The position numbers and the translations under genes were made by a program. DNA of 45,042 bases from Elusimicrobiota bacterium (GTDB lineage Bacteria; Elusimicrobiota; Elusimicrobia; UBA1565), in assembly GCA_016196755.1 (NCBI GenBank), contig JACPXC010000062.1, positions 1-45,042 of the forward strand, in the 5' to 3' direction. The notes under the pieces are model-generated. The model saw nothing but the letters and a program-made list of their open reading frames with translations, was not told the origin of the DNA and searched no databases. Of the stretch, positions 16,248 through 38,500 are shown piece after piece. Positions within the stretch are counted from its first letter, which is position 1, and every line of letters begins with the position of its first letter.

Positions 16248-16634
16248 CAAGGCTCGGCCGTTGTCCCTCAGCCAGCGGCGACGGCGCCGCTGTTCGGGGC
16301 AATGCCGCGCCACGAGGTCCCAGAAGCGCTTGCCGTGCCCGCGCCAGCGCAGGTGGGCCAGCTCGTGGACGACGACGTAGTCGAGCACCTCGGGCGGGGC
16401 GTCGAGCAGGCGGCGGTTGAAGCTCAGGTCGCCGCGCGCCGAGCAGGAGCCCCACAGGCTCGACATCTCCTTGAGGCGCACCTTGCCGAACTCGACGCCC
16501 ATCGCCGGAGCGTGGTGGGCGCAGCGCTCGCTGAACGGGTCGCTTCCGCGCGGGGCCGGCCGGGAGAACACCTCGGGATGCTCCCCGCGCAGGGCCGCGA
16601 CGAAGGCCCGCACCTCGGCCAGTATCCCGCTCAC
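16110..16634 (-). CDS. YgjP-like zinc metallopeptidase
   Basis: Product of 174 residues. The core holds MSSLWGSCSARGDLSFN and the zinc motif HELAH followed by a third histidine in RGHGKRFW, the signature of the YgjP/DUF45 family. The family is about this size but normally ends soon after the WLRDNG-like segment. Here the frame runs about 45 residues further, through the end of the sulfatase-fold gene on the other strand, so the tail may be an accidental extension after loss of the original stop. The GTG start overlaps the stop of the receiver gene (GTGA). The substrate is unknown. Confidence 0.8.
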   Translation of the reverse strand: MSGILAEVRAFVAALRGEHPEVFSRPAPRGSDPFSERCAHHAPAMGVEFGKVRLKEMSSLWGSCSARGDLSFNRRLLDAPPEVLDYVVVHELAHLRWRGHGKRFWDLVARHCPEQRRRRRWLRDNGRALLAGQLPGAGAVEREDAQGPLGAGRQEILGQGEVEAPGLGVGPAAV

Positions 16635-17041
16635 GCGGCGGGGGGCGGCGCCGGAGCCAGCTTTTCGACCTTGGCCTTGAGGCGCAGGAGCTCGAAGGGC
16701 TTGCTGATGAAGTCGTTGGCGCCCTGCATCAGGCAGCGCTCCACGTCGTCGAGCGTGCCGCGCGCCGTCACCATCATGATCGGCACCGCGTTGAGCTTGG
16801 GGTTGGAGCGCAGGAGCAGCAGGGCGTCGGGCCCGGTCATGACCGGCATGTCGACGTCGAGCAGGATGATGTCGGGGGTCTCGGCCAGGGCCATGTCCAC
16901 GCCCAACTGCCCGTTGGAGGCCTCGCGCACGGCCCAGCCGGTCTCGGTGAAGAACATCGCCAGCATGGTCCGCGCCGACACGTCGTCGTCGACGATGAGC
17001 ACCGAGCGCTTCTTGCCGCCCCCGAAGGGCCACATCCCCAT
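16631..17041 (-). CDS. Stand-alone response regulator receiver
   Basis: Product of 136 residues. Residues 12-125 are a single CheY-like receiver: acidic pair in LIVDDD, phosphoacceptor aspartate in ILLDVDMP (about D60), and the lysine of ISKPFE. No output domain is present, so it must act by binding another protein or as a phosphate relay. A short Gly/Lys-rich N-terminus and Pro-rich tail flank the domain. A second ATG two codons in is an equal start. A TAGAAT box (17051-17056, minus strand) lies ten bases upstream of the first ATG. It is coupled to the metallopeptidase gene downstream. Given the motor operon 1.2 kb away, a CheY-like role is conceivable but unsupported. Confidence 0.92.
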   Translation of the reverse strand: MGMWPFGGGKKRSVLIVDDDVSARTMLAMFFTETGWAVREASNGQLGVDMALAETPDIILLDVDMPVMTGPDALLLLRSNPKLNAVPIMMVTARGTLDDVERCLMQGANDFISKPFELLRLKAKVEKLAPAPPPAA

Positions 17042-18254: not shown

Positions 18255-19685
18255 ATGACCCGACACCTAGCCCGCGCCGCCGTAGCCTTGCTTTGCGCCT
18301 GCCCGGCCGTATTCGCCGCCCAGGGGACCCAGGAGATCGAGACCGAGGTGGCGCTGGAGAGCGCGCAGGAGGCCCGCCTCCAGACGGTCCTGCGGAAAGT
18401 TCTGGCCAGCGAGGACGTCCTGGTCATCGTCGACATGGACCTGGTTACCGACTCCCGCCCCCGTCTCTCCGAGCTCCTGCCCGGCGTGCCGCTCAAGGAC
18501 ACCCCGGTGGCCGCCGACATGGCCCCCCTGGTCCGCTCCAGCGTGAAGGCGCTCAGCGCCACGGTCATCCTCGACGACTCCCTCTCCGCCGACGCCGACA
18601 CCCCGGCTCAGAAGATCGCCGAGCAGGTGCTCAGCATGGACCTGGGCCGCGGGGACGCGGTGACGGTCAAGCGCATGCGCCTGCGCGGCCAGCTGGCCGC
18701 CGCCCGGGCCCCGGCGCGCGAGTGGATGATGCCCGCCCCTCTGGTCTCCCTGCTCTGGCTGGGCGCGGCGCTGGCGGCCCTAGGCCTGCTCTACGGCCGC
18801 TTCCTCAACCCCCTGCTCGGCGTCCTGCGCGAGATCGGCGCGGCGCGCTCGGCCCCGCCCCCGGCCTCCCCGGCCGGCGGCATGATCGAGCCGGCCACCG
18901 ACAAGATGCCCCCGCTCTCGGCCTCCCTGGGCGCCCCGGAGACCGTCCCCGCCGCCGCGGCCGACGGCGAAGAGCTGCCGTTCTCGTTCTTGCGCGAACG
19001 CCACGCGCCGATGCTCAAGTTCCTCCTGCGCCGCGCCCCCGCGCGCACAGCCGCCGTCATCGTGCACTACCTGCCCGCCCGCGTGGCCGTCGACGTCCTG
19101 GGCGAGCTGCCCGCCGAGACCCGCCGCGAGGTGGCCAAGGCCATGAGCAAGGTGGTCCAGCTCGACGAGGAGAACGTGCGCCAGATCGAGGATTCCCTGC
19201 GCGCGCGCATCGATTACCTGATGGGCGGCGAGGACAAGCTGGCCGAGATCCTCGACCAGGCCCCCCCGGCGCTCCAGGAAGAGATGTTGGCCGCGGTGCG
19301 CGGCGAGGAACCCGACGTGGCCATCCGCCTCGGCCGGCGCATCGTGCGCCTCGAGGACGTGGCCGCCCTCGACGCCAACGACCTCAAGACCCTCTCGCGG
19401 CGCGTGCCGATCCGCAGCCTGGCCTCGGTCTTCAGCAACTCCCCGGAGATGAAGGCCCAGATCCTCCCCAAGCTGGGCGCGGGCCTGGGCGCCTGGCTGA
19501 CCCAGGAGATCGAGCTCGCCGGGGTCATGTCCGGGGACCGCCTCCAGACCGAGCAGCGCAAGGTCCTCGCCGTCCTGACCCAACTGGTGCGCGAGGGCGC
19601 GGTGAAGCTGCACCGCCCCGACGACCCGATGGCGGCGGCTCTGGCCCACGAGGCCGCCCCCCCCGCTCCCCTGCAGGAAGGCTAG
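18255..19685 (+). CDS. FliF C-terminal / FliG fusion, motor rotor-like protein
   Basis: Product of 476 residues. Residues 1-22 are a signal peptide. Residues 25-145 match the C-terminal periplasmic part of FliF, including ALSATVILDD and the GRGDAVTV motif (131-138). A membrane helix lies at about 160-182. After an Ala/Pro linker, residues 243-455 resemble FliG middle and C domains: FLRERHAPML..., LPAETRREVAKAM, GGEDKLAEILDQ, then RLEDVAALDANDL in place of the FliG MFxFEDL region. FliF ring-building domains and the FliG N-domain are absent, so no standard MS ring can form. The protein spans the membrane once with its FliG part in the cytoplasm, where MotA could contact it. MotA and two MotB-like genes follow directly. 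A frame-internal ATG at 18216 is rejected because it lies within the promoter. Confidence 0.75.
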   Translation: MTRHLARAAVALLCACPAVFAAQGTQEIETEVALESAQEARLQTVLRKVLASEDVLVIVDMDLVTDSRPRLSELLPGVPLKDTPVAADMAPLVRSSVKALSATVILDDSLSADADTPAQKIAEQVLSMDLGRGDAVTVKRMRLRGQLAAARAPAREWMMPAPLVSLLWLGAALAALGLLYGRFLNPLLGVLREIGAARSAPPPASPAGGMIEPATDKMPPLSASLGAPETVPAAAADGEELPFSFLRERHAPMLKFLLRRAPARTAAVIVHYLPARVAVDVLGELPAETRREVAKAMSKVVQLDEENVRQIEDSLRARIDYLMGGEDKLAEILDQAPPALQEEMLAAVRGEEPDVAIRLGRRIVRLEDVAALDANDLKTLSRRVPIRSLASVFSNSPEMKAQILPKLGAGLGAWLTQEIELAGVMSGDRLQTEQRKVLAVLTQLVREGAVKLHRPDDPMAAALAHEAAPPAPLQEG

Positions 19686-19688
19686 CCC

Positions 19689-20474
19689 ATGGACCTGATG
19701 ACCATCATCGGCGCCGTCGTCGGCCTCGGCGTCGTCATCTTCATCCTGGTCGTCGGCGAGATGGCCCAGTTCCTGCTCAACTTCGAGGCCATCGTCCTGA
19801 TCTTCGGCGGCACGCTGGGCTCGGTCATGATCAGCTACCCCTGGTCGGCCCTGCGCCACGTCCCCAACGCGGTCAAGATGATGATCCTCCCCCCGCGCCG
19901 GCCCGACGCCAACCTCTTGGTCGCCACCTTCGTGCGCCTGGCCGAGCTGACGCGCCGCTCCGGGTCGGACGCCCTGGCCGCCGAGCTCAGGGCGCTCCCC
20001 CACCCCTTCATGCAGGACTGCGTGCAGATGATCCTCGACGGGCTCGATGAGGAGACGATCGACGACCGCTGCCAGCGCGACATCATCGCCACGCGGCACC
20101 GCCACATGCAGGTCAGCGGCATCTTCCGCTCGGCCGGGACCTATGCCCCCATCTTCGGCCTGCTCGGCACCCTCATCGGCGTCGTCCAGGTCCTGCGCAA
20201 CATCACCAACCCCGCGATGATGGGCACCTCGATGGCGGTGGCGATGACCGCCTCGTTCTACGGGATCTTCGCCGCCAACTTCTTCTTCCTGCCGGTGGCC
20301 AGCAAGCTGAACTTCTACTCCGACGAGGAGGTGCTGAGCCGCGAGCTCATCGCCAAGGGCACGCTCTGCCTGGTCCACGGCGAAGTGCCCTGGCTCCTGG
20401 CCAAGAAGCTCGAGGCCTACCTCTCCTTCCAGCTCCGCAACAGCGGGGCCAAGGGCTACCGCGTCCCCGTCTAG
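19689..20474 (+). CDS. motA: MotA-family stator subunit
   Basis: Product of 261 residues, normal for MotA. Four membrane helices are visible: residues about 5-23, 32-50, a pair around 150-170 (YAPIFGLLGTLIGVVQVL) and about 182-203 (MAVAMTASFYGIFAANFFFLPVASKL). The cytoplasmic loop keeps an arginine where E. coli MotA has R90 (TRRSG), but the E98 position appears to be alanine by hand alignment. MotA pentamers surround a MotB dimer and turn ion flow into rotation. The gene lies three bases after the FliF-FliG fusion with a GGAAGG ribosome site, and two MotB-like genes follow. Flagellar use is unlikely since no flagellar structural gene is nearby. Confidence 0.93.
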   Translation: MDLMTIIGAVVGLGVVIFILVVGEMAQFLLNFEAIVLIFGGTLGSVMISYPWSALRHVPNAVKMMILPPRRPDANLLVATFVRLAELTRRSGSDALAAELRALPHPFMQDCVQMILDGLDEETIDDRCQRDIIATRHRHMQVSGIFRSAGTYAPIFGLLGTLIGVVQVLRNITNPAMMGTSMAVAMTASFYGIFAANFFFLPVASKLNFYSDEEVLSRELIAKGTLCLVHGEVPWLLAKKLEAYLSFQLRNSGAKGYRVPV

Positions 20475-20486
20475 CCGCCTCCCCCG

Positions 20487-21152
20487 ATGATCCCCTTCCT
20501 CCATCGCGTCGCCCCGGAGTCGATGGAGGACAACCCGCTCTGGCTGGTCGTGCTCTGCGACATGATGACCAACCTCATGCTGTTCTTCCTCGTCATGTAC
20601 ACCTTCTCGATCCAGGGCCCCAAGGCCAAGGCCGAGTTCGAGCGCGCTTTCCGGCTCGAGGAGGCGGTGGAGGCGGCGCCCCCCGCCCCGGCCCCCGCGG
20701 CGCCGGTCGACCCCGCCCCCGCCCTCCGGGCCGCGCTGGCCGCCGCCGGCCTCGCCGCCGAGGCCGAGGTGACGGCCGTCGAAAACGGGGTGCGCGTGCG
20801 CCTGCGCGAGGGCGTGCTCTTCCCGTTCGGCACCGCCGAGCTCGCCCCCCGGGCCGCCGCGCCGCTGGCAGTCATCGCCGGCGCGCTCAAGGACGCCCCC
20901 CATGAGGTGGTCGTCGAGGGCTACACCGACGACCGCCCGGTCCTGGGCGGCTCTTACCGCACCAATTGGGAGCTCTCGGTGGCGCGCGCCCACGCCGTCC
21001 TTGCGCGCCTGGCCGGCGAAGGCCTGGCGCCGGCGCGCCTGACCGCGGCGGGCTACGGCCCGTACCGTCCCGCCGCGGCCAACGACACCGAGGAGGGCCG
21101 CGCCAAGAACCGCCGCGTCGAGCTCCTGATCCTGCGCCCGGAGGACGAGTGA
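20487..21152 (+). CDS. MotB-like stator subunit with OmpA domain (first copy)
   Basis: Product of 221 residues. One membrane helix begins near residue 18 with the ion-carrying aspartate D25 in LCDMMTNLMLFFLVM, matching the MotB signature. A Pro/Ala linker follows, then an OmpA-like peptidoglycan-binding domain (about 90-215) with VEGYTDDRPV, TNWELSVARA and AKNRRVEL. It would anchor the stator to the cell wall and carry ions with MotA. The linker is shorter than in E. coli MotB. The next gene, a second MotB-like protein, starts on its stop codon (GTGA). Confidence 0.9.
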   Translation: MIPFLHRVAPESMEDNPLWLVVLCDMMTNLMLFFLVMYTFSIQGPKAKAEFERAFRLEEAVEAAPPAPAPAAPVDPAPALRAALAAAGLAAEAEVTAVENGVRVRLREGVLFPFGTAELAPRAAAPLAVIAGALKDAPHEVVVEGYTDDRPVLGGSYRTNWELSVARAHAVLARLAGEGLAPARLTAAGYGPYRPAAANDTEEGRAKNRRVELLILRPEDE

Positions 21153-21820
21153 AGCGTCCGCGCGCTATGGCCGAGGCGCCCGGCGTCGACCCCGGGCTCT
21201 GGATGGTCCCTTACGCGGACCTCATGTCGAACATGATGATCCTGTTCCTCTCGCTTTTCGCCTACTCCTACGCCTCGCGCAGCCCCGAAATAGACCAGGC
21301 CATGAGCCAGGTGCAGGCCGAGATGTCGAAGGGCATAGACGACCCGCGCGCCGCCCGGCGGCTCGACGAATCCAAGGCCGCCGTCGAGCTCGAGAAGGCC
21401 ATCCGCGGCCTGACGTTGGACGAGCTGGGCGTGAAGGTCACCGCGCGCCGAGTGCGCCTGGCCCTGCCCGCGCCGATCCTCTTTGCCGAAGGCTCCGACC
21501 GGGTCACCGACGAAGGCCGCCGGGCCCTGGCCCCGCTTGCCAAGGTCTTCGCCACCCTGCCCAACACCGTCCTCGTCGAAGGCCACACCGACGACCGCCC
21601 GATCGCCGGCGGCCGCATCCGGACCAACTGGGAGCTCTCCGCGGCGCGGGCCTTCGCCGTCATCGAGGTCCTGGCCGGCTCGGGCCTGCCGCCCGAGCGC
21701 TTCCGGGCCCGCGGCCACGGAGAGTTCCGCCCGGTAGCCGACAACGCCACCCCTCAGGGCCGCCGCGCCAACCGGCGCATCGAGATAAGCCTGGTGCGTG
21801 AAGCCCCGGAGCCCTCGTGA
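21149..21820 (+). CDS. MotB-like stator subunit with OmpA domain (second copy)
   Basis: Product of 223 residues if started at the GTG in the GTGA overlap; the ATG at 21167 gives a form six residues shorter. The membrane helix carries the aspartate in YADLMSNMMILFLSLFAY (D24), followed by a charged helical linker and an OmpA-like domain (EGHTDDRPI, TNWELSAARAFAV, GRRANRRIEI). It differs clearly from the first copy in helix and linker but shares the wall-binding motifs, so it is an old duplication rather than a recent one. The pair may form a mixed MotB dimer inside one MotA ring, or two alternative stators. The myxobacterial AglRQS gliding motor also has two MotB/ExbD-type subunits. Confidence 0.9.
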   Translation: MKRPRAMAEAPGVDPGLWMVPYADLMSNMMILFLSLFAYSYASRSPEIDQAMSQVQAEMSKGIDDPRAARRLDESKAAVELEKAIRGLTLDELGVKVTARRVRLALPAPILFAEGSDRVTDEGRRALAPLAKVFATLPNTVLVEGHTDDRPIAGGRIRTNWELSAARAFAVIEVLAGSGLPPERFRARGHGEFRPVADNATPQGRRANRRIEISLVREAPEPS

Positions 21821-22701
21821 GGCGGGGCTTCCTGCTCCTGCTCCTGGCCGCCCCGCTGCGGGCCGCGGTCTCCGCCGAGGAGGCCCAGCGCATCCGCTCC
21901 ACCGAGCTGGCCGGCCACTACGAGACCGCCCTGCAGTTCTACACCAAGAGGGACTTCAGCCGCGCCGTCATGGAGTGGCGCGAGATCCTGCGCCTGGCCC
22001 CCGACCAGAGCTCGGCCGAGAAGATGATCGGTCTGGCCCGCGAGGAGATCGACAAGCGCGACCGCGAGAAGCAGGACGTCGTCTATGCGAAGGCCGCCTT
22101 CGGCGACTACGCCGGAGCCCTGGTCTCCCTGCAGACCCTCCTGCAGGCCGACCCCCTGCACCCGGCCTACGTGGTCCTGCAGGCCCGGCTCGACCGCATC
22201 TCCTTTGTCGTACCCACGGTCTCGACCGACACCAAGGCCTGGCAGGCCGCGGTAAGCGGCCTGAGCGGCTACCTGGCGCGCGAGGAGGACCTGCCGCTGG
22301 CCTACGACGGCCTGCGCCTGGCCAAGGAGCTCGACGCCAAGGAGCCGCTCTTCGACCGCCTGATCTCGGTGCTGTTGGCCGACAACCCCTCCCTGGCCCA
22401 GGACGCGCTGACCCCGGGGATGGGACTCATCGAGTACAAGCGCTACGTGGCGCTCAACAACATCTACGACGGCAAGTACGCCCAGGCCGCCGTGGTCTTG
22501 GAGCGCGTCCTCAAGCTGGCGCCGGAGGACGACATCGCCCTCAAGCGCCTGGGCTCGGCCTATTTCGCGATGCGCGAGAAGGGCCGGGCGCGGACCCTAT
22601 GGGAGAGGGCCCTCAAGCGCAGGCCAGACGACGCCCAGCTCAAGGAGTTCCTGTCGCGCGTCGAACTGCCGGCGGCGGAAGCCGCGGCGGCCCTCCCCTA
22701 A
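21817..22701 (+). CDS. Exported TPR protein of motor operon
   Basis: Product of 294 residues. A short signal peptide (RRGFLLLLLAAPLRAAVS) is followed by TPR-like helical pairs, clearest at about 35-65 (ALQFYTKRDFSRAVMEWREILRLAP), 85-120 and 205-285 (NIYDGKYAQAAVVLERVLKLAPEDDIALKRLGSAYFAM). It should be periplasmic and act as a scaffold. The GTG start overlaps the second MotB-like stop (GTGA), so it is made with the motor and probably links it to a cell-wall or outer-membrane partner; that link is inference. It is the last gene of the unit: the next gene starts 43 bases on with its own -10-like box. Confidence 0.85.
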   Translation: MRRGFLLLLLAAPLRAAVSAEEAQRIRSTELAGHYETALQFYTKRDFSRAVMEWREILRLAPDQSSAEKMIGLAREEIDKRDREKQDVVYAKAAFGDYAGALVSLQTLLQADPLHPAYVVLQARLDRISFVVPTVSTDTKAWQAAVSGLSGYLAREEDLPLAYDGLRLAKELDAKEPLFDRLISVLLADNPSLAQDALTPGMGLIEYKRYVALNNIYDGKYAQAAVVLERVLKLAPEDDIALKRLGSAYFAMREKGRARTLWERALKRRPDDAQLKEFLSRVELPAAEAAAALP

Positions 22702-23841: not shown

Positions 23842-23877
23842 CTGGCGCGAACGCGCCGTCCGGGCTATCCTCTTGGC

Positions 23878-24503: not shown

Positions 24504-26420
24504 CTAGAACGACCACGACACTCGGGTCGAGGCCAGTATCTCGCTGAACTTGTTGCCCGGCGCCAGCTTGTCGTCGTTCTTGTTGTAGCCGGCCCCCAGG
24601 GTCATGTTGAGGGCCTGGGACTTGGCATAGGTGAACTCGGTGTTGAGCTGGGTGTTGCGCACGTCCGAGGGGAAGAGCGGGGCGGTGTTCTTGGTCTGGG
24701 TCAGCGTGCCCCAGACCTGACTGGTCCAGATCTTGTTCAAGCGCCGCGAGACGCTCGGCGAAACCGACAGCGAGGTGCGCTGGGAGCCGTCGACCTTGTC
24801 CTTGGTCGCCGAGCGGGACACGCCGAAGGAGGCGCTCATGACCGGCGAGATCCCCCAGGTCGAGGCGACCGACATCGTATTGGTGTCGAGGTCGTGGGCC
24901 AAGCGGTTCTTGTCCTTGAACCGGCTGGTGTTGAGGCTGGCGGCCACGCTGTTGCGGCCGAAGCGCTGGCTGACGGCGGCGCCGATGGTGGTGGTCTGGT
25001 TGTCGAGCACGGTCTCGGGCTTGCCCTTGGCCGTGACGAGGGCCCCGCTGAGGCTGATGCTCGTCTGGGTCTTGAGCTGCAGCGAGTCGCTCACCGAGAT
25101 GAAGCGCTGGGTGGTCGAGGTCTTGAGCCTGTCGTTGGCCAGGTTGTCGCGGTACTGGTTGATCGCCAGGCTCATCGAGTTCCAGCTCACCGGGTAGAAC
25201 CCTAAGCTGGCGTCGTAGGTCAGGCGGTCGCCGATCGAGCTCGGGGCTCCGAAGGAGACGAACTTGGGGCCGGCGCGGGACACGAAGGTCTTGAGCTTGA
25301 ACAGAGGCCGCTCCCAGCGCAGCTCGCCGCGCCAGGCGCCGTCCTTGACGCCTGGCTTGGCGGTGTCGGCCGCGAAGGTGGTCTTCTGCCAGTCGAAGAG
25401 CAGCTTGACCTTGTGGAACGGGTCGTAGGCCAGGCTGAGTCCATAGCCCGAGTTCTTCTGCGGCACCAGGGTCGGCCCGCGGAAAGTCGGCGATTTAGGG
25501 TCGGTCGAGAGCGACTGGGACTCGTCGGCGCTCAGGAAATAGTTGACCGCCGTCGTGACCTTGCCGAACAGCCGCCGCCCGAGCTTGCCGGCGTAGAGCG
25601 AGCGGGCGAAGCGGCCGTTGGTCGTGGCGGTGCCGGCCTGCGAGTCCACGGTCATCCCGCCCAGCACCGTCCACTCCCATTCCCCTCTGCGCTGCTCGAG
25701 CATCGCCCCGCGGGCGCTCTGGCCGTTGACGGACAGCTCGGAGAGCTGCGGGGAGATGTCGCCGCCGAAGATCGTCCCCCAGGGCGCGTAGAGCGTGAAC
25801 AGGACGGTGAAGGGATCGAAGACCTTGCCCTTCTCATGGAGGATATAGGCGTTGAGAAGGTAGGAAGAGTCCTTGAGCTTGCCGACGCCGTTGATCGTCG
25901 TGGCGCCGCTGTGGCGGTTCCAGCCGTCTCGGCTCGAGTTGCGGTAGGAGACCGTGACGTTCCCCTGGACCTTGTAGTCGACGTTCTTGGGCGGCTCCGG
26001 CACCGCCTTCTCGATGATGACGAACGGCTTGAGCGGCGAGGCGATGAGGGTCTGGGAGTCCTTGATGAGGAGCACGCGGTAGAGGCGGCGCCCGATGGCG
26101 GTGTCGGGCACGTGGAACGACAGCGACACCGAGGCCACGGCCCCCGCCGCCACCGTCTCGCGGGGCGAGACCTGTTCGGTGCGGCCGACCAGCTTCTCGT
26201 CGAGGTCGTAGACCTCGCCGATCCAGTAGTAGGTGCCCGCCGCCCAGGCCGCGTCGCCGGTGTTCACCGCCAGGGCCTGCAGAGCGACGCTCTCTCCTGC
26301 CTGGACGGGGTCCGGCGCGGGCACGGTGAACTGCAGGGCCGCGGAGTCCAAGGCCCATGCCGCGGCCGCCGTGCCCGTCAACAGCGCGGCGGCCAGCGCG
26401 AGGGACTTGGTTGCGTTCAT
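24504..26420 (-). CDS. Outer-membrane beta-barrel protein
   Basis: Product of 638 residues. A signal peptide (to about residue 23, AWALD) is followed by a periplasmic domain of about 130 residues rich in beta strands, then many amphipathic strands separated by short turns, ending in STRVSWSF with a terminal phenylalanine. That ending and the alternating pattern are typical of proteins inserted by BamA. The N-terminal part resembles CARDB/Ig-type domains (VPAPDPVQAGESVALQALAVNTGDAAWA). I cannot tell a pore from a secretion channel. It is the last gene of the giant-protein operon, 30 bases after the FecR-domain gene, so it may anchor or export the giant surface protein. Confidence 0.8.
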   Translation of the reverse strand: MNATKSLALAAALLTGTAAAAWALDSAALQFTVPAPDPVQAGESVALQALAVNTGDAAWAAGTYYWIGEVYDLDEKLVGRTEQVSPRETVAAGAVASVSLSFHVPDTAIGRRLYRVLLIKDSQTLIASPLKPFVIIEKAVPEPPKNVDYKVQGNVTVSYRNSSRDGWNRHSGATTINGVGKLKDSSYLLNAYILHEKGKVFDPFTVLFTLYAPWGTIFGGDISPQLSELSVNGQSARGAMLEQRRGEWEWTVLGGMTVDSQAGTATTNGRFARSLYAGKLGRRLFGKVTTAVNYFLSADESQSLSTDPKSPTFRGPTLVPQKNSGYGLSLAYDPFHKVKLLFDWQKTTFAADTAKPGVKDGAWRGELRWERPLFKLKTFVSRAGPKFVSFGAPSSIGDRLTYDASLGFYPVSWNSMSLAINQYRDNLANDRLKTSTTQRFISVSDSLQLKTQTSISLSGALVTAKGKPETVLDNQTTTIGAAVSQRFGRNSVAASLNTSRFKDKNRLAHDLDTNTMSVASTWGISPVMSASFGVSRSATKDKVDGSQRTSLSVSPSVSRRLNKIWTSQVWGTLTQTKNTAPLFPSDVRNTQLNTEFTYAKSQALNMTLGAGYNKNDDKLAPGNKFSEILASTRVSWSF

Positions 26421-26450: not shown

Positions 26451-27197
26451 CTACTTCTTCTCGAGGATCGCCTCCGTCTCCTTCACCTGCCCGTCCTTGC
26501 CTCGGAACTGGATATTGAGCTTCCGGGTCTTGTCCGCCTCGCCCTGGAGGCGTTTGAGCGCCCGGCCGACGTCCTTCGGGCTGAGCGTCGTCTGCCACCT
26601 GCCGTAGTCGGACTGGCCCATCATCCGCGCGGCGTCGGGCGCCTGCCCGGCCCCGCCCACCTGCGTCATCATCCCGGCCCTAAGCGACTGCAGGCCGAAA
26701 GGGTTCTGCAGGTCGACGAGCCCCTCGTAGACCTTGACGGTCATGCGTCTGTCGACCTCGACGTCGGCCTCGGTGCCGCGCACCGCCGCCACCGCCAGCG
26801 GGCTGCGCACGTTCATCCCCGCCTTGCCGTGCAGCAGCCGCGTCCAGGCCTGCCCGGCCTTGGTGTAGACGCTGGTCGGCTTGGAGCCGCCCCCCGATTC
26901 CACGGCGAACTCCGAGTTCTCGTTGATGCGCATCTCCGCCCCGCCGACGAAGGCGATCGCGGTCCGCTCCCCGGCCCCGGTCTTGATGACGTCGGAGTCG
27001 TACACGAACTGCTGGAGCTTGAGCTTGGAGACCTTCCCGTCGGCCGAGGCCTTGACGGTAGGCGCCCCGCGCAGGTCCACGACCACCCCGGCCACCGGCT
27101 TGGGCGCCGGAGCCGCGGCCAGCCCGCTCGACAACGCCGCCGCCAGGCAGCCCACCGCCGCCAAGCCCAGCAGCCTTTGCATCCCTTGGTTCCTCAT
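26451..27197 (-). CDS. FecR-domain exported protein
   Basis: Product of 248 residues. Signal peptide, then a FecR-type beta domain: VAGVVVDLRGAPTV, DVIKTGAGERTAIAFVGGAEMRINENSEFAV, GKAGMNVRSPLAVAAVRGTEADVEV and KVYEGLVDL. Unlike sigma-regulator FecR proteins it has no N-terminal cytoplasmic part and no membrane helix, so it is probably a periplasmic or surface structural protein. The C-terminal 90 residues are charged and helical. The ATG overlaps the previous stop (ATGA) and has a strong AAGGAGG ribosome site five bases before it. A second Met five codons in is an alternative start. It lies between the CARDB/PrcB-like gene and the barrel gene. Confidence 0.85.
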   Translation of the reverse strand: MRNQGMQRLLGLAAVGCLAAALSSGLAAAPAPKPVAGVVVDLRGAPTVKASADGKVSKLKLQQFVYDSDVIKTGAGERTAIAFVGGAEMRINENSEFAVESGGGSKPTSVYTKAGQAWTRLLHGKAGMNVRSPLAVAAVRGTEADVEVDRRMTVKVYEGLVDLQNPFGLQSLRAGMMTQVGGAGQAPDAARMMGQSDYGRWQTTLSPKDVGRALKRLQGEADKTRKLNIQFRGKDGQVKETEAILEKK

Positions 27198-29203
27198 CGC
27201 CCCTCCTTGCCGCCTTCTTCCTGGAAGTCGCCCTTGAGCCCGGAAAGCCGCACGACCACGCCCGCGAACGGCGCCCCGCCTTCGCGTCGGACCCCGGCGT
27301 CCTCGGCGCCCTCCAGACGGTACGCCACCAGCAGACCGTTCTGGGACTCGGCGACGCGCGAGAACTCCACCCGCGAAGCCCCGCGGCCGGAGCCGGCCAC
27401 GACCAGGACGACCATCGACGCTTCGAAGTCTATCTCGGGGGCCGGGCCGGCGCTGAGCCGCTTCCAGAGGCGGCCGAAGTCCTTGGCGTCGCGGATGATG
27501 GCGCGGGCGCCGCGCGGACCGAAGCTGTCCACCGAGCGGCCGGCGAAGCCCCGCACGGCGCCCTTATTGGCCGTATTCTTCTTGGGCTCTCCTTCCTCGG
27601 TCTCGGCGGGCTCCTCCTCGAGGCCGGTGGGCGGCGGCCCCTCGAAGACTTCGGCCTCGGGAATAGGCGCCGCTCCGTCCCCTCCGGCCGGGTCCCGCCG
27701 CGGCCCACTGAGCGTGAGTCGGGCGGTGCCGCGCTTGAGCTGGTCGAGGAGCGCCGCCGCGTCGCCGGCCGAAAGCCCGTCGAGCCCCCGCAGCTTGTAT
27801 TCGCCCAGATCTAGACCCAAACTCTCCAGGGCAGCACCTAATCCCCCCAGGAGTTCCTCCCCGGACGGCCCGGCCTCCGCGGCCGCCTCTGGGCCCTCGG
27901 CAGGCAGGTTGTCGTCGGGAGCCGCGATCGGGTTGGCGAACATATCCTCGAAGGCGCCGGACACGCCGCCGACGGGCCTGTCGACGGAGATCTGGGCCTG
28001 TCCGCTGGCGAGCTGCTCGAGCAGCGCCTGCATGTCGTCGGCCGAAAGGCCTGCGCCAAAATCGACCAGAGAGTAGCCGCTCATGTCGGTGCCGGCCTCG
28101 GTGAGCTTCTGTTTGAGGGCCTCCCAGAGCTCGTCCTTGGTGAGCGGCCGGGCGGGGTCGGCGCCGCCGAGGCCGGCGGGGCGGGCGACCTGCATGCTCT
28201 TGCAGTTGTTGGGCACGTTGTCGTCGAAGAAGTCCAGGCAGGCTATCGCCAGGCTCTGCGCCTGATCGGGGGGCATCGGCGTGCTGAACGTATAGACGGC
28301 CCCGTCCCCCGGATTGAGAGCCGCCAAGATCAACGGGGAGTTGGGCGCCGGCAGGCCGCCCAGGCTCATGCGCATGGAGATGTTGGATTCGCTGCTTCCC
28401 CCCTGGTTTGCGACGCGGACGGAGAAGTTCATGCTGGCCCCGGTCCGGCCCGTCAGCTCTATCTCGGTCACCGCCAAGTCGCGGGTGAGAGCGGCGCTCA
28501 GGGCGGAGAAGTTCGCCGGGGTCTCGCTCTGGGCCACGACGTTGCCCGCCGCGTCCAGACCCTCGACCTTCCAATAGTACACCTGCCCCCCGGATAAGCG
28601 CAGGCGGGGGTCGGCGGGGTTTTCGGGGTAGGCCAGCACGTTCTCGGCGCCCTGCGTCGATTGGCTGAACAGAGCGTTGTAGAGCGAGGGGTTCTCGCCG
28701 ACGGTCACGCGGTAGCGCGTAGCGCCGCTGGCCGTCCAGCGGAAGGTGACCGGCCGGTCGCCGACCTCGCGCGCCCCGTTGGGCGGGTAGATCAGCAGGA
28801 TATTCGGCGAGGAGAGCGCGAAGCTGGCGCTCTGCGCCACGGTCTGCCCGTCGAGGGCGGCCTCGGCCGTGAAGGAGTAGAGGCCCGGGCCCGCAAAGAA
28901 CTGCGACACCGGGACGCCCGAGACCTGGCTGGCCGAGTTCCCTATCGAGCCCGGGACGGAGTTGCCCTGGTGCCTGAAGACCTCCTGGCCGGTCGGCGCG
29001 AGGATGCGAAAGGTGAAACGGATGCGGTCCACCGAGGCCACGGTATTGGCGACGCGCGCCTGGAGCGTCACGCGCTCGGTGTTCGAGAACTGGTTGCGGT
29101 CGGCCCCGGCGGCGTCCTTGACGAAGGCCCCGGCCCCGGTAAAAGCGGCGCAGGCCGGCCCGGAGGCGGAGAGGAGCGCCACGACGAGCAGGACGGTCCT
29201 CAT
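27194..29203 (-). CDS. Exported CARDB/FN3-like protein with PrcB-like C-terminus
   Basis: Product of 669 residues. Signal peptide (MRTVLLVVALLSASGPACA), then Ig-like domains to about 240, including an FN3-type segment ending YYWKVEGLDAAG. A CARDB-like domain follows (DLAVTEIELTG...FSVRVANQGG...DFFDDNVPNNC). Next come two copies of a short helical repeat: MSGYSLVDFGAGLSADDM then ALLEQLASGQAQISV, and LGEYKLRGLDGLSAGDAA then LLDQLKRGTARLTL. The end (about 560-660) resembles the PrcB C-terminal domain: ARAIIRDAKDFGRLWKRL, PEIDFEASMVVLVVAGSG, PFAGVVVRLSG. It is coupled by ATGA overlaps to the giant gene before it and the FecR gene after it. A periplasmic or surface role supporting the giant protein is inferred. 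Confidence 0.82.
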   Translation of the reverse strand: MRTVLLVVALLSASGPACAAFTGAGAFVKDAAGADRNQFSNTERVTLQARVANTVASVDRIRFTFRILAPTGQEVFRHQGNSVPGSIGNSASQVSGVPVSQFFAGPGLYSFTAEAALDGQTVAQSASFALSSPNILLIYPPNGAREVGDRPVTFRWTASGATRYRVTVGENPSLYNALFSQSTQGAENVLAYPENPADPRLRLSGGQVYYWKVEGLDAAGNVVAQSETPANFSALSAALTRDLAVTEIELTGRTGASMNFSVRVANQGGSSESNISMRMSLGGLPAPNSPLILAALNPGDGAVYTFSTPMPPDQAQSLAIACLDFFDDNVPNNCKSMQVARPAGLGGADPARPLTKDELWEALKQKLTEAGTDMSGYSLVDFGAGLSADDMQALLEQLASGQAQISVDRPVGGVSGAFEDMFANPIAAPDDNLPAEGPEAAAEAGPSGEELLGGLGAALESLGLDLGEYKLRGLDGLSAGDAAALLDQLKRGTARLTLSGPRRDPAGGDGAAPIPEAEVFEGPPPTGLEEEPAETEEGEPKKNTANKGAVRGFAGRSVDSFGPRGARAIIRDAKDFGRLWKRLSAGPAPEIDFEASMVVLVVAGSGRGASRVEFSRVAESQNGLLVAYRLEGAEDAGVRREGGAPFAGVVVRLSGLKGDFQEEGGKEGR

Positions 29204-29510
29204 CGCACCACCGCCAGCTTCTTGATGACCTTCCCGTTCTGGCCGTTGTTTCCCTTGACCTTGGTCATGAAGAGATAGACCCCCGAGGCCACCGACTCCC
29301 CGTCGTCGTTGGTGAGGTCCCAGACCGCGTGATAGAGACCGGGGGACGGGGAGTTGAAGGACGAGCCCGGCAGCTCCTTGACCAGGGTGCCCGCGATGTC
29401 GAAGACCTGGACCTGCGCCTCGAGGCCGGGCAGGCCGGAGACGAAGCGGAAGGTGGTCCGGCTGCGCGCGGGGTTCGGGAAGGCGAACACCTGCTCGGCG
29501 GGCAGCGGGT
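29200..29510 (-). other. FlgD-Ig-like C-terminal domain of giant protein
   Basis: About 100 residues: VFAFPNPARSRTTFRF, VQVFDIAGTLVKEL, GLYHAVWDLTNDDGESVASGVYLF, KKLAVVR. This pattern is shared by FlgD-Ig domains and type A sorting domains of type IX secretion. Without the secretion genes in view I cannot decide between them. Confidence 0.75.
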
Positions 29511-32500
29511 CGAAGACGAAGAGGACCTCGTGGGTCTCGCCTTCCCCGAGCTCGACCTCCTGGGCCTCGGTGTACTCGAGGCCGTTGTAGGCCCGCACCG
29601 CGTACTTGCCGGGCAGGAGGTTGGCGATCGACCAGCGGCCGGTGGGGTCCGGGCGGGCCGCGGCGACCTGAGCGCCCCCGCGCAGGAGCTCCACCCGGCT
29701 GTCCCGATAATCGTTGCCGGCCGCCCGGGCCAGGAAGCCGGCCGGCCCGCTCGACTGCGCCGACAGCGAGGCCAGCGTCCCGGTCAAAGTGGACAGAGTG
29801 TAATTGATTTCCAGGACGAAATCGACGTTGACCGCACCCATCGTCACGTTGTCGATCCAGACCGAGCTGGCGACCTCCCCGGCCGTCCAGGTGGCCTCGA
29901 CTTTGTAGACCCCGCCCGGCACGCTGTCGAGAATATAGGTGCCGCTGCCGTCGGCCAGCGTGAAGGCCGTGGCGACACGCGCGCCGTTGGCATCGAAGGC
30001 CTCGACCTTGACCGCGGTGACGCCCTCGCTGGAGGTCTTCACGACGTGGCCGCTGATCTTTTGCTGGGGCGACTGCAGGGCGAAGGAGCTGGCCACGTTG
30101 GAGACCGCCGACCAGTTCCCATCGTTGTCGGCCGTGAAGACGGCGAAGAAGTAGGTGTCGCCGGGGGTCAGGCCGTTGACGATGACGAGCTGGATGTCGC
30201 CAGGGTTGACCGGGCCGCTCGTGCGCGCCACCTGGGCGGCGGTGGTGCTGAACGCCGCCGCCGCGAAGGAGGCGTGATGGATGCGGAACTCGGCGCTCAG
30301 CAGCTGTCCCGCCGCCCCGTCGTCGCCCGTCGCCGACCAGTTCAAGATGACCTCTCCCGGGCCTGAGCCGAACGTTGCGGCCAGGTTCGCTACGGCGGCG
30401 GGAGGCGTGAGGTCCTGCCAGGTGAAGGTATTGGAGCGCACCTCGAAGGGCTCCGTGTTGGGCGGCACGGCCCCGTCGATCGTGTTGATGGTGAGCTGAT
30501 AGCTGGCCCCGTGGGCGAGGCTGGCCCTGAGCCTCGGCGAGGTGGCGGCCGTCCACGACGTCAGGGCGCCGGCGGCCCCGGTCGAGACCGGGGTCGTCCC
30601 GAACGCGTCGTTGAAGAAGTCCCAATACTTCCCGTCCGAGATCCGGCGCAGCTTGAGCTGGACCGACGAGAGGCCGGCGGTGATCCCGCTCTGGGGCAGG
30701 GGGTCGGCGGCGGTCCCCGAGACCGCCGGCAGGACTGCGATCGCCGCCCCGTCGGCCGGGACCAGGACGCGGCCCGTAGGCGAGGAGGCGTCCAACGTGA
30801 AGCTGGAGGTGGAGTATACCGGCGAGAAGCTGCCGGCCGTGTCCGAAGCGCGGGCGACGACCTTGTAGGCCTCGCCGTCGACGAAGGCGATTCCCGGCGG
30901 CAGGGTCCAGGTCCCGGTCCCGGAGGCGGTGAAGAAGACATGCGGGCCGCTGTCGAAGTCCGCCCCGGACCAGAACAGCCCGGTGCCGGTCTCCTGGAAC
31001 GCCGCCTCCACGCCCTGCATGCCGACGGCGTCGAAAGCCGTGCCGGAGACCAGGCCGAGCGAGGAGCGGAACGCGGAGGCCGGGACGCTCACCGCCACCG
31101 TCGGAGGAGTCGTGTCCTTGATGACTCGGAACGCGTCCACCCTGGTGTTCGTGGTCCCGGCCAGGTCCCAGGCGCGGATCGAGATGAAGTTCGTGGTCCC
31201 GTCGACCAGCGAGTCGAAGTCCAGCGCCCAATCCGCGGTGAAGGCCGTCGTGCCGGCGGCCAGAGGGATGTCCGTCCATGGCAGCACGGCCTGGTCGGCC
31301 AACCCCGCTGCCAGGCTGGCGCTGTACTGGAAGCGCTCGAGGCCGCTGGCCGCGTCCCGGGCGTCGACGTTGAAAGCCGGCGAGGCGCGCCGCGGGGAGG
31401 TCTCGCCCGGCACGTCGACGATGAAGGAGGGCGCGGTGGTGTCCTTGCGCACGAAGAAGGCGTCGACCACGGCCGTGGAGTTGGCGGCCGAGTCGAAGGC
31501 CTCCACCGTCACGTAGTTGGTGGCCCCCTCGATCATGGCGGTGAACACCGAGCCCGGCAAGGCCCAGTCGGTCGTGAAGGATTCGTCGTTGATGTCGGGC
31601 GGGACGTCCGTCGGGCCGGCCAGGCTGGGTCCGCCTCCCCCAGGCACCAGGGAGGCCGTCACCCTGAATCTGAGGAGCTCGGAACCGCCCTGGTCGGCGA
31701 AGTCGACGTCGTAAAGGCCCGTGTTGGCGCGCCGCCAGCGCGTGTCCCCGGCCGCGTTCACGGACATCGTCGGCTTGACGTCGTCGGAGGCCAAGGTCGA
31801 CGTCGTCACGGCCGCCGTGAACGCCGTCGGAGAGCCCGCGCGGTTGAGCGCGCGGACCCGGAAGAAGTAAGGCGTTCCGAACGGCAGGTCCGTCCCCTCG
31901 CCCCTGCGGCCGAAGCGCACCTTGGTGTCGACGGTGGTCGAACTGCGGTCGATCGGCGAGAAGCCCGGGTTGCCGGAGAGCTCGGCCACGTAGCGCGTGC
32001 CGGCGGGATTGCCGTTGGCGCTCCATTGGAAGGAGACGGCGTTGGTGTTGCGCACCGGGAAGGTGGCCAGCGAGAGCTCCGGCGGGGCGGCCAGGGTCAC
32101 CGTGGTCCCGCTCAGCGCGTAGGCGGTAGGCGCGCCGTCGCGGCCGACGGCGCGGACGAAGAGCTGATAGGTCGTATCGGCGCTCAGGTCCGCGAAGTCG
32201 GCGCCGACGGCGCCCTCCGGCGCGGTCGATAGCTCCACGTTCCCGGAGAACAGGTTCGGGAAGCCGGCCCCGGTGCTCAGCACGGCGTCGTAGCGCGTGC
32301 CCGCGGTGTTGCCGGACCCCGACCAGGCCGCCGACAACGTGCTCGACGCAAGCGCCGTGAAGGCCAAAGAAGCGAGGGCGGGGTCCGACGGCCGCGTGGC
32401 CGTCGAGCCCAGCGCTGCGTAGGCCGACGGCACATTGCTCCGGGAAAGCGTGCGCGCGAACAGAAAATAGGTAGCGTTCGAGAGCAGGCCCGTGAACCCG

Positions 32501-35500
32501 GCGCCGGGGCCGAGCTCCGGAGAGGTAGAGACGACGCGCTCATCGGGCGAGCCGTCCGGGACGCCCGCGACGGTGGACGCCACGACCTCGTAGCGCGTCC
32601 CTCCGATGTTCCCATTGGCGTCCCATGAGACGGCGAAGGCCGTCGTCGTCGTCCCGGACACCCCGGCGCCCGGCGCCGGCGCGGAGGCCAGCGTCACGGT
32701 GGATGCCAGCGCGACGTACGCCGTCTCCCCCCCGCCGTGGCTCAGCGCGGCCACGAAGGCGTTGTAGGTCGCGTTGGCGAGCAGCCCGGTCAGGACGATT
32801 CCCGGGGGCCCGAACGGCCGGGTGCTCAGCTGCACCGTGCCCGAGGCGGCGTTCGGGACGATCGTCGCCGTGGCCATGAATACTCGGTACACCGTGCCCG
32901 GCGAGTTGCCGTTGGCCGACCACTGAAGGGTCGCCGAGCTGCGCTCGACGGCGAGGTAAGTCGTCCCGGCGGCCATCGGGTCGTTGGGCAGGGTGGCGGT
33001 CGAGCCGAGCGCGCTATAGGGCGTAGAGGCGCCGCCGCGAGAGATCGCGCGCACGAAGAGATAGTAGGTGGTGTTCGAATCGAGGTCGGTGAAGTCGGCC
33101 TGCGGCGCCCCCTCCGGCGCCGTCGAGACGGAAACGTTGCCCGGGTTCAGAACGGCCTCGTAGAGCGTCCCCGACGAGTTGCCCGCGCCCGACCAGAAGG
33201 CCGTCATCGCGGTCCTCGTCACGGCCGTGAAGGTCTCGGCGACCGTGGCGGGCTGGGCGGCCTGGGTCGCCGTGGCGGGCAGGACCGTGAAGACGCTGCT
33301 GAGGCCGGAATGGTTCTCGGCGGCCACCGAGACGCTGTAGGTCGTGTTGGGTTCCAGGCCCGAGACCAGCGCCGTGGGCGGCGACTGCGCGGGGACCGTC
33401 GAGAAGGAGACGGCGGCGCCCGGCGCCGGCGAGAACACGACCCGGTAGCGGGTGATCCCGTCGGGATTGCCGCCCGTGGCCCACTGGACCGAGGCCGACG
33501 AGACGCCGACGTAGAGCAGCGGCGTGCCGCCCACGCCCGGCGCGGCCGCCAAGGTCGCCGTCGAGCCCAGGACCAGGATGGGGCTGGGCAGGCCGTTATG
33601 GTTGACCGCCCGGACGCGCACGTAGTAGGTCGTGTTCGCCGTCAGGCCGTTGAGAGCCAAGGAGGGAGCCGCGGCCGCCACCGTGCTGCCGACCGCGCCG
33701 TCATCGCTGAAGTCGCTCGAGGTAGCCGCGTGCAGCTCGTAGAGCGTGGTGCCGGCCGCGTTGCCGTTGCGGGACCAGGCCACGGTCAGCGAAGTCTCGC
33801 CCGCGCTGAGGAACGCCTCCGCGGCGGGCGTCGGCACGGCCGCCAACGTGGCGGTGGCGGTAAAGACCAGCGGGGTGGAGGCGGGGACCAGGCCGTGGTT
33901 GACCGCGACGACGCGGACGTAGTAGGTCGTGTTCGAGAGCAGGCCGTCTATCACCGCCGACGGCGAGCCTTGGGGAGCCGTGCTCAGCGGGATGTCCGAG
34001 GAGCCGGTGAAATTCGCGTCTGTCGAGGCCGTGAGGTCGTAGCGTGTCCCAGCGGGGTTGGTGTTCGCCGACCACTCGACGGTCATCGAGCCGGCTTGTA
34101 CCGAGGCATAGACGGCCCCCGACGGGTCATTGACCCGCGTGACAGTCGAGCCCATCGGGACCATGGCGGACGGGGAGCCGCCGTGGTTGAGCGAGCGCGC
34201 GAACAGGTAATAGGTCGTGTTCGCGATGAGGCCGGGAAAGTCGGCGCCCGGCGCTCCGGGCGGCCGCGTCGAGACCCCGACGGTGTTGGCCAGCGAGTTG
34301 GGAAAGACGGGGTCGGTCGACACCGCCGCCTCGTAGAGCGTGCTCCCCAACGGGTTGCCGTTGGCTCCCCAGACCGCGCTCAACGAGCTCACGAAGACAT
34401 CGGGGATGGAGTCCGCCAGCGGAGCGAAGGCCAGCGTGACCGTGGCCCCTAGCGCGGTGAAGGAGGTGCGCTCTCCGTCGTAGGCTACGGCGCGCACGAG
34501 CAGGTAGTAGGTCGTGTTGGCGAAGAGGCTCGAGAGCGCCGCCGACGGGCCTCCCTGAGGCGCGGTCGATGCCGACCGGTTAGCCGTGTCGGCGGCGGTA
34601 AACGACGCGCTCGTCGACAGGACGGCCTCGAACTCCGTGCCGGGGGCGTTTCCTGCCGCGTCCCAGGCGGCCGTCAGGCTCTGCGCGGCCACGGCCGAGA
34701 AGGTCGAGACGGCGGTCTGCGGGACGGCGGGCCGCGTCGCCGTCGAGCCCAGCGCCGTGTAGGCGGTGAGGCCCCCCGAGTGGCTGACGGCGGCGACGTG
34801 GAGGAAATAGGTGGCATTGGAGGCCAGGACGCTGAGCGCCGCCGCGGTCGGGAAGGCGCGCGTCGAGGAGACGACGTTGCCCGAGGCGGCGTTCGGGAAC
34901 GCGCCCGGCACGGTCGTGGCGGCGACCGAGTACAGGGTCCCGTCGGCGTTTCCGGCCGGCGACCACGCGACGGTCAGCGACGTGGAGCTGATCGACGAGA
35001 AGGGAGCGGAGGCGGCCAAGGGGGTGTTGGGCAGGGTGGCGCTGGAGCCGAGGAGAGCCCAGGGAGAGAGCGCGCCGCGGTGGCCGACGGCCCGGACGTA
35101 GAGGTAGTAGGTGGCGTTGCCCGCCAAGGAGGTGAAGCCCGCGCCGGGCGCCGCGAAGGGAGTCGTCGCTACGAACCTCTCGTCGGTGGAGTCGTCGGGC
35201 TCCGACTCCGCCTGGCCGAGCACCGCGTGGAAGATCGTCCCGGCGGGATTGCCGGCGGCCGACCAGGCCGCCGTCATCGATGAGGTCGTCACGCCGGTGA
35301 GCGGCGCGGGGTCGGGCGCCGGGACGGCCGGGAAGGTGACGCTGGAGCCCAGACTCAGGAAAGCCGTCTCGACGTTGACGCCGTTGCGCGCCTGGACGCG
35401 CCCGAAGTAGGTCGTATTGGGGACCAAGCCGCGGATCTGGGTCGAGACGCCGGCTTCCCAATCCGAGGCGAAGAGCTGGCCCGAGAAATCCGCCGCGGCG

Positions 35501-38500
35501 GAGAGCTGGGCGCGGAAGAACGTCCCCCCCGGGTTCAGGTTGAGGCCCCACTGCAGGGTCATCGACGAAGGGCCGAAGGAGGGGAACGAGTCGGCCGCCG
35601 ATGCCGGCACCGCGGCCAGCGTCACCGCCGACAGATTCGGAGACTGGTTCCCGCTGTCGATTCCCAGCTGGTTGCGGGCCTTGGCGCGAAAGGTATAGAA
35701 GGTGTTCGGGGTCAGGTTGTTGAAGCGATGCATCGCCCCGGTCGCGTACTCCTCGTGGGTGGTCAAGGCGCCCGCGCCGGCGTTGCCTCCGAGGACCAGG
35801 ATGGTTCCGCCTCCCGATTCGGCGGCCGCCGCCAGCGAGCGCGCCGTGGGCATGGGTTCCAGGCGAGCCCACGTGTTCCGCGCCGGGTCGTAGACTTCCA
35901 CGACGCCGGAATCGGAGATTCCGTCGCGGCCTCCGAAGACGTAGAGCTTCCCGCCGGCCGCCGCGACGGCGGCTCGCCCGCGCGGGGTCGGCATCGGCGC
36001 GCGCGAGGCCCAGGTGTCGGTCTGCCACAGGTACTCCTCGTTGGCGGCGACCGGTACGCCCGAAGTGTCCTCGCCGCCCACCACGAAGACCCGCGTTCCG
36101 ACGAGGACGGCCGCGGCGCTGGTGCGAGCGGTGGGCATGGGCTGCCGCGTCGTCCAGGTGTCGGAGGCGATCTCGTAGGACTCATGCGTGGCGAGCTCGG
36201 CGCCGAAGATGTCGTCGCCGCCGAACAGATGCACCTTCCCGTCCACGGCCACCGCCGCCATCTTACGGCGCCCGGAGCTCATCGGAAGCAGGGTGGTCCA
36301 GGAATCGGCCGCCGGATCATAGCGCTCGTTGAGCGTCTTAAAGCCGCCTTCGAACCCGCCCATCAGATAGAAAAAGCCGCCGGAGGCGGCGGCCCCGAAG
36401 TACCCGCGCGCCCCGGCGGGCAACGGCGCGCGGCCGGCCGGCCATTGGGCCCGCTCCAGTTCGAAGACGTCGTTGGAGGCCAGCCCTTCGCCGCCGATCG
36501 CGTAGACGTTGTTCTGGTCGACGAGGTAGGCGAAGCCCTGGCGCGCCGCCGGCGCCGCCGTCGTGCTGCGCCAGAACGAAGCCTCGGGGGGATCGTAGTC
36601 CGTGCCGCCATTCTTCGAGTGGCTGATCCCCGAGCGGCCGGCGTGCAGGTTTCTAAATCCGGCCCCGGATAGGAATCCCGAGACTACGATGGTCCGGCTG
36701 CCCACGTGGTCGAGATAGACCGACTCCGGTGTCTCGATGCGGGTCACCGTCGAGCCCAGGACGGCCTCCCCGCCGAACACGCCGTTGTGGTTGTACGACC
36801 GCACGATCAGGAAATGTGTCGTGTTCGAGAACAGGCTCCCCGCCGAAAGCTGCAGCGGCCCGAAAGGCCGGGTCGTCACGTCGACGACGGCGCTCGTGAA
36901 CGGCATCGTGGTGGCCAGGAGCACCTGGTATTGCGTGCCCAGCGGGTTGCCGTTGGCGCCCCAGACCATGGTCAGCATCCCGGTGCTGACGAAGGTGAAG
37001 GTGCTCACGTCGGAGACCGGCGCGTTGGCCAGCGTGGTGGTCGAAGGAGGCACGGCGGCCGCGTAGGTCGTCGCCGAACGATAGAGGCCGCCGACGCGCA
37101 GGTAGTAGGTCGTGTTGACGCCCAGGCCGAGCAGCGTCGCCGAGTTCTGGATCGGCGGTGCCTCCACCGAGGCCGTCAGCGTGGCGAAGACCGGCGAGGT
37201 GGAAGCGTCGACGACGACCCGGGTCTGCCCCGTCACCGTCGAGAATCCGACCGTCACGAAGGTGGGGCCGGCCGCGACGACGCTCCGCCCCTGCACCGGC
37301 ACCGGGACGAACACGTTCGTGGAGAGCTCCAGGCTCCACGAGCTGCGCGCTAGGCCCCCGTCAATCGCCTGCAGGCGGATGAAATAGGTGGTGTCCGAGG
37401 CCAAGCGCCCGCCGGGGGTGTCAAGCCGGAACATCACCCCGTGCTTGGGCGTGGAGTCCCCCGGCCAGACCGTGAAGGCGGGACGCAGGAAGTGGCCCAT
37501 GAGCGGGCTGGCGTCGCCGGGCGCGGCCGCGAAGACCGAGGGATTGGTCACGATGCGCTCATCGAGCGCCCCCAGCGACATCGCGCTGGTGGCCACGACC
37601 AAGGCGTACTGGAGCGAGCCGCTCGAGCCGGGGCCGTCGTAGTCCGCCCCGGGCCACTTTACCGTCAACGTGCTGCCCGTGGCGTCGTAGGCCAGGTGCA
37701 GCTCGGCCGGGTTGAGGGCCGCGGGGCGGGCCGGCACGGTGTTGACGGTGGTGCTCAAATTGCGGACGAAGACGTCGGCGCCCGGCGTCTCGGACACGAA
37801 GAGCAGGTCGAGGTCGCCGTCGCCGTCGAAATCGCCGGGGACGGCCTGCGACATGGCGCCTTCGGTGCCCCGGATGGAGGCGACTGCGAATCCCCCCGCA
37901 CCGTCGTTGCGCAGGAGCTTGCTGCCGCCGGCGGAATTGCGCGCCAGGACGAGGTCGAGGTCGCCGTCCGAGTCCACGTCGGCCCATGCGAGGCGCCGGC
38001 CGGCCAGCCCCGCGCCGCCCACGGTCAGGTTGGAGCCCGTGAACGAGCAGGCCCCGTTGTTGGTCAACAACCGCGCTTCGACGTCATCGAAGGAGAACGC
38101 CAGGTCCAGGTCGCCATCCCGGTCGTAGTCCCCCCAAGCAACGCCGCGGCCTTGCCCGGCGGCGTCCGGCAAGCTCCCCACGCTGAACACCCCGCCTTGG
38201 TTGCGCCAAAGGCCCTGCTGGCCGCCGGCCTTGGCCACCGCCAGGTCCATCTGGCCGTCGCTGTCGCAGTCGCCCCAGGCCAGAGCGGTGTTCGAGCCGC
38301 CGGTGCCGGCCAAGGGCGAGGTGGTCAGAGTCCCGTCGCCGTTGTTGCGGGCCAGGATGGCGTCGCCGACCGCGGTGGCCGCCACGCCGTCCAGATCCCC
38401 ATCATGGTCGACGTCGGCCCAAGCTAGGTCCAAGAGCTCGACGCCGGTCCCGTAGAAGCTGGGAGCGAACGAGCCTCCGTTATTGCGGTATGTGGCGATG

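Follow-up and report, generated by a model that had tools for sequence, protein, structure and literature searches.

A five-gene operon of rotor and stator genes

The DNA analysed here (hereafter the window, 45,042 nucleotides) corresponds to contig C33 of the Elusimicrobiota genome G000, an assembly of 4.59 Mb rated 100% complete; statements on the host genome rest on family searches. Five genes on the + strand span positions 18255-22701, with spacings of 3 and 12 bases followed by two overlaps of 4 bases. They encode, in order, a rotor fusion made of an exported FliF RBM3-like domain, a single transmembrane (TM) helix and the FliG M and C domains (18255..19685), a MotA of the flagellar type (19689..20474), two MotB proteins and an exported TPR protein (21817..22701). 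MotB-1 (20487..21152) and MotB-2 (21149..21820) both comprise a TM segment with an Asp residue (the conserved Asp25 and Asp24, respectively), a plug and a peptidoglycan-binding OmpA domain. Coordinates and Pfam searches confirm the composition and tight spacing described in the initial annotation: FliG_M (4.7e-11) and FliG_C (5.5e-10) in the fusion, MotA_ExbB (8e-23) in the MotA gene product and MotB_plug and OmpA in both MotB proteins are all above cut-off, and TPRs are found in the fifth protein. Flagellar MotA/PomA models fit the operon MotA better than ExbB does: its best NCBIfam matches are MotA/MotP/PomA models, each below its own equivalog cut-off, and ExbB reaches just 0.002. Upstream, a CheY-like receiver protein (16631..17041, - strand) may act as a regulator; L041 and L044 likewise have a receiver gene immediately before the operon. 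The two + strand genes located just 3' of the operon (22744-24486) gave no family match, are missing from the locus of the nearest relative and are not counted among the parts of the system.

The relation of the fusion to FliF and FliG, as initially claimed, is borne out by profile and fold searches. Since the Pfam model YscJ_FliF_C is not significant on the window protein alone (E 0.36), membership of the FliF family is argued from the family profile, the fold and the paralogues. Searched against the PDB, a profile of 16 fusion family members retrieved FliF/SpoIIIAG RBM domains (E 0.0013-0.03) and FliG (1.2e-47). The AlphaFold2 model of the fusion (pLDDT 75.6, pTM 0.41) displays an alpha-beta-beta-alpha-beta RBM-like domain leading through a long helix (161-199) to FliG M and C, and Foldseek relates this model to FliG (7.8e-10) and then to FliF S-ring structures (8e-5 to 5e-4). 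Furthermore, paralogues from the same genome pass YscJ_FliF_C with 31.7, 31.0 and 24.1 bits for a cut-off of 23.8. The proposal that the rotor is anchored by one helix instead of an MS ring holds in part: RBM1 and RBM2, which correspond to the M-ring, and the first TM segment are indeed missing, but RBM3 is retained. As this domain forms the S-ring in flagella, the fusion rotor probably still makes a ring.

Conservation of the stator was assessed on 76-80 sequences and that of the rotor on 66. The ion-binding position is D in 94% of the sequences for MotB-1, and D in 80% and N in 11% for MotB-2. In MotA, positions 89 and 90 are basic in 97% and 92% and position 99 is acidic in 86%. In FliG, 85% of the rotor sequences have an acidic residue at 373 and 96% a basic one at 382. 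The MotA-FliG contacts of E. coli involve R90/D288-D289 and E98/R281 (PMC12505986), and these positions were matched to the present MotA and FliG by eye, not via an alignment with the E. coli proteins. The ion-binding Asp of both MotB proteins and the MotA charges predicted to face FliG thus appear largely conserved.

Distribution of the gene order and search for flagellar genes

A search of the five-gene order across genomes, as suggested by the initial annotation, indicates that it recurs across classes of Elusimicrobiota and in Nitrospirota. Using the operon MotA as query, a contig scan for relatives returned mostly Elusimicrobiota records and a few titled Nitrospirae or Clostridia, and a fusion-related protein was identified in 122 of 295 Elusimicrobiota genomes, a count that includes longer paralogues. 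Of the first 15 neighbourhoods, 14 show the full order, with both MotB proteins in a single frame in one case, and the remaining one is truncated by the end of its contig; the order is also kept in five Nitrospirota neighbourhoods. Among roughly 100 neighbourhoods uncut by contig ends, 5 of which are from Nitrospirota, essentially all have the core order rotor-MotA-MotB-MotB; the 80 scan loci, taken by themselves, give the same result wherever contig ends leave the order uncut. At these scan loci, the TPR gene follows the core in most cases, precedes it in a minority (e.g. L120, L125, L127 and L128) and was not recognised at several (e.g. L115, L130 and L134). A gene order kept between classes, and in Nitrospirota too, excludes chance. 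The record of L130, 'Ca. Obscuribacterium magneticum', was considered as a further phylum and rejected, the search of its phylum having returned the same Elusimicrobiota genomes.

Among 198 Nitrospirota genomes, 7 match the fusion across the rotor and the FliF part; 123 match FliG only, as canonical FliG does. At four flagellated Nitrospirota loci, the fusion profile matches, through its N-terminal half, the frame adjoining canonical fliG (22-28 bits), and the match of these putative FliF frames fits a descent of the fusion from a fliF-fliG pair. In a FliG tree, the window-type fusions group with the Nitrospirota fusions (SH-aLRT 89) and canonical FliG stands apart (99), in a topology obtained by a short search with long branches, four canonical rows only and mixed labels for some TPR-first loci. 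In Nitrospirota, L227 (G503) has a MotA gene adjoined by one for a protein of 576 residues that combines an N-terminal extension with the FliG N, M and C domains.

The lack of flagellar genes, initially noted over 45 kb, extends to the whole genome for FlhA, FliM/FliN and the FliF N-domain. Searches of 74 Elusimicrobiota genomes that have a fusion-related protein, the host included, returned no FlhA, nor did those of ten further genomes reached via the loci, and the C-domain of FliM/FliN (FliMN_C) and the N-domain of FliF (YscJ_FliF) were each found in none of 56 such genomes; four flagellated control genomes matched in each of the FlhA, FliMN_C and YscJ_FliF searches. With these three not found, and with FliF and FliG confirmed by profile and fold, neither outcome named at the outset as contrary to the idea of a non-flagellar machine applies. 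Elusimicrobia have been described as devoid of flagellar genes (PMC7031533, Fig. 4 legend).

Putative outer-membrane partners and paralogous motor loci

Convergent with the motor operon are genes, all on the - strand, for a predicted outer-membrane beta-barrel with an N-terminal Ig-like domain (24504..26420), a FecR-domain protein probably sharing the transcription unit of the barrel (26451..27197), an exported protein that matches CARDB weakly and whose start is approximate (27194..29170), and a giant exported protein (29200..45042). The barrel model (AlphaFold2, pLDDT 83) has about 26 strands and its Foldseek matches are outer-membrane barrels; of the 80 scan loci, many of which end before a barrel could appear, 40 have a homologue next to the motor. 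The giant, an open frame of 6006 codons that continues past the window, contains FG-GAP, G8, beta-helix, kelch and fn3 domains and a C-terminal type A sorting domain of the type IX secretion system (T9SS; TIGR04183, 35.3 bits vs a cut-off of 23). A giant matching TIGR04183 is the neighbour of the motor in L174 and L178 as well as in the window, and of a paralogous motor in L140. A matching C-terminal tail is present in 25 of the 80 scan loci, many again ending before a tail could appear. The host genome has 13 T9SS-tail matches, of which three are no more than 7 kb from a motor locus, where 0.3 would be expected (P 0.003); this is a rough guide, the loci being already known when the count was designed. 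Open frames of 8968 codons (G000:C14:27798) and 11824 codons (G263:C21:71942) also have T9SS-type tails at or near their ends. In the five Nitrospirota operons (L228-L232), an exported protein of about 560 residues is encoded divergently from the rotor gene, with RCC1 repeats and an Lcl_C domain in the two tested.

A SprA-like translocon is nearly phylum-wide in Elusimicrobiota: with a phylum profile, the protein was detected in the host genome (on contig C22) and in 34 of the 39 genomes searched, although Pfam SprA_N gave no match in the host. Two SprA-like relatives match TIGR04189 (2.7e-51 and 5.3e-35), below its equivalog cut-off. The protein also occurs in G003, G016 and G034, small genomes where the fusion was not found, and among the Nitrospirota genomes there was no match in G295 and G296 and a weak one in G297. 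Taken together, SprA in genomes without the fusion and Nitrospirota operons without clear SprA indicate that the link with T9SS is not obligatory, and it may fail in Nitrospirota. GldL, the known T9SS motor subunit, was above cut-off in none of 33 genomes, with a model that matched no control genome either.

The host genome carries four more loci combining FliF/FliG and MotAB (L139, L140, L141 and L142), making five in all. Each of the four encodes a protein joining a PorV-family barrel to TPRs, and the profile of the window TPR protein matches their TPR portion. NF033709 (PorV family) passes its cut-off for L139 and L141, and the matches of L140 and L142 are significant but fall below it. The PorV-TPR protein of L141 has, in addition, a weak match to the TPR of GltE, from the Glt envelope complex of AglRQS gliding (4e-4, below cut-off). 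In L139, L140 and L141, a gene for a large protein lies directly upstream of the PorV-TPR gene on the same strand; TIGR04183 gives 29.2 bits for that of L140 and is above cut-off for that of L141 (at C38:81082), and the L139 protein ends with a C-terminal FlgD_ig domain. The L142 stretch ends at the PorV gene, so that the neighbour beyond it falls outside the data. The machine was initially viewed as self-contained, which it probably is not: its neighbourhood ties the motor to outer-membrane barrels and to giants with T9SS tails, in genomes having a SprA-like translocon.

A candidate surface motor and its alternatives

The identity of the motor is well supported, a FliF/FliG ring turned by MotAB being the reading that best suits the parts and the conserved residues. 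The set shares with the flagellar motor the RBM3 of FliF, FliG M and C, a flagellar-type MotA and a MotB with plug and OmpA domain; it differs by the fusion of FliF to FliG, the loss of RBM1/2, of the first FliF TM segment and of a full FliG N, the presence of two MotB proteins and the lack of detectable FlhA and FliM/N. The Myxococcus gliding motor AglRQS has one A subunit and two B subunits, as here, whereas the MotA described here is of the flagellar type and is paired with a FliG rotor; AglRS has been placed in a non-flagellar clade (PMC12505986). With the T9SS and gliding apparatus of Bacteroidota (GldLM, SprA, PorV and SprB), the likeness lies in the SprA-like translocon, the PorV-family barrels and the giants with a type A sorting domain, and the difference in GldL not reaching its cut-off and in MotAB-FliF/FliG motors adjoining the giants. 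We found no description of a system of such composition in the open-access PubMed Central literature; a discussion of 'half a motor' is relevant to the motor set (PMC12199754).

We propose, with a probability of about 0.6, that the operon encodes a rotary motor driven by ions, which uses the flagellar rotor and stator core outside any flagellum and is coupled to T9SS-delivered surface proteins that it would move or help to export. The fusion would form an inner-membrane ring through its FliF RBM3, with FliG M and C on the cytoplasmic face, and the peptidoglycan-anchored stator, presumably using both MotB proteins together with MotA, would turn this ring through a MotA-FliG contact of the flagellar type. 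On the periplasmic side, the TPR protein would couple the ring to outer-membrane barrels and giant T9SS-delivered proteins, a role that the PorV-like-barrel-TPR protein may take at the paralogous loci. Judging from the neighbourhood, the load would be the giant surface proteins, either moved in gliding or adhesion or assisted in their export. The initial interpretation of a rotary or gliding machine without a flagellum is therefore supported, with refinements on the ring, the partners and the paralogues. More tentatively, a flagellar core devoid of rod, hook, filament and export gate might drive gliding by moving giant T9SS-delivered adhesins, the five motor loci of the host genome each serving different adhesins, in the place of the GldLM of Bacteroidota; this would be a new class of rotary machine.

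That the MotAB-FliF/FliG motors replace GldLM solely to energise the secretion of giant T9SS cargo, and take no part in movement, would suit the SprA-like translocon, the PorV-like barrels, the sorting tails and the failure to find GldL. We consider it rather unlikely, as SprA is kept in three genomes where no fusion was found, the Nitrospirota operons lack a clear SprA, and five motor loci against one SprA match exceed the need of a single secretion system. Movement of surface proteins is thought likelier than the powering of secretion because of this persistence of SprA without the fusion and of the number of motor loci. The peptidoglycan-binding MotB proteins, the TPR protein, the nearby receiver gene and the L140 paralogue, in which a histidine kinase is fused to FliF_C-FliG, could also be accounted for by an envelope or signalling device that performs PMF-driven work between inner and outer membranes (Tol-Pal-like) or senses load, the surface proteins remaining unmoved. 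This appears improbable, for it leaves the recurrent neighbours with giant T9SS tails unexplained, and proteins of TolQ/ExbB size are encoded separately in the host genome.

Homology of every motor part to flagellar parts in genomes without a flagellum might suggest the decaying remnant of a lost one, yet decay is very improbable: the five-gene order is intact across classes and two phyla, the ion-binding and charged residues are conserved, and genomes hold several paralogous loci each, all of which points to use. An antiphage system akin to Zorya (ZorAB), with which the set shares MotB-family subunits, is hardly credible: both MotB proteins do match the PADLOC ZorB models (6e-22 and 1e-24), but these are MotB-family models, and ZorB was the only component retrieved when nine window proteins were scanned for ZorA-E. 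MotA, the fusion and the TPR protein had no PADLOC match, and the FliF-FliG rotor and the TPR partner further set the operon apart from Zorya.

In many uncultured Elusimicrobiota, this compact gene set, at times present several times per genome and next to genes for giant secreted surface proteins, suggests the use of flagellar motor parts in another kind of surface machine, perhaps for gliding. The proposed motor would unite the flagellum with the T9SS, two rotary systems that are generally considered apart, and has a bearing on whether flagellar-type stators form a flagellum-specific group, as has been held (PMC12505986). It leads one to expect motility on surfaces, or active display of surface proteins, in a phylum said to be without flagellar genes (PMC7031533), and a T9SS with a SprA-like protein beyond Bacteroidota, whereas a review of 2023 restricts this system to that phylum (PMC10202324).

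Several proteins encoded at the paralogous loci of the host genome have a distinctive architecture. In L140 (11376-13835, - strand, contig C44), a histidine kinase with HisKA and HATPase domains is fused to FliF_C and FliG M/C, giving a rotor with a built-in kinase. The paralogous rotor of L139 (4953-6935, contig C25) has TPRs at its C-terminus, and after it comes a protein of about 800 residues (6951-9341) that looks like a coiled coil and has no Pfam match. Similar exported or membrane proteins of about 700 residues, with the appearance of sensors, adjoin the paralogous motors in L141 (11217-13271) and L142 (10543-12672).
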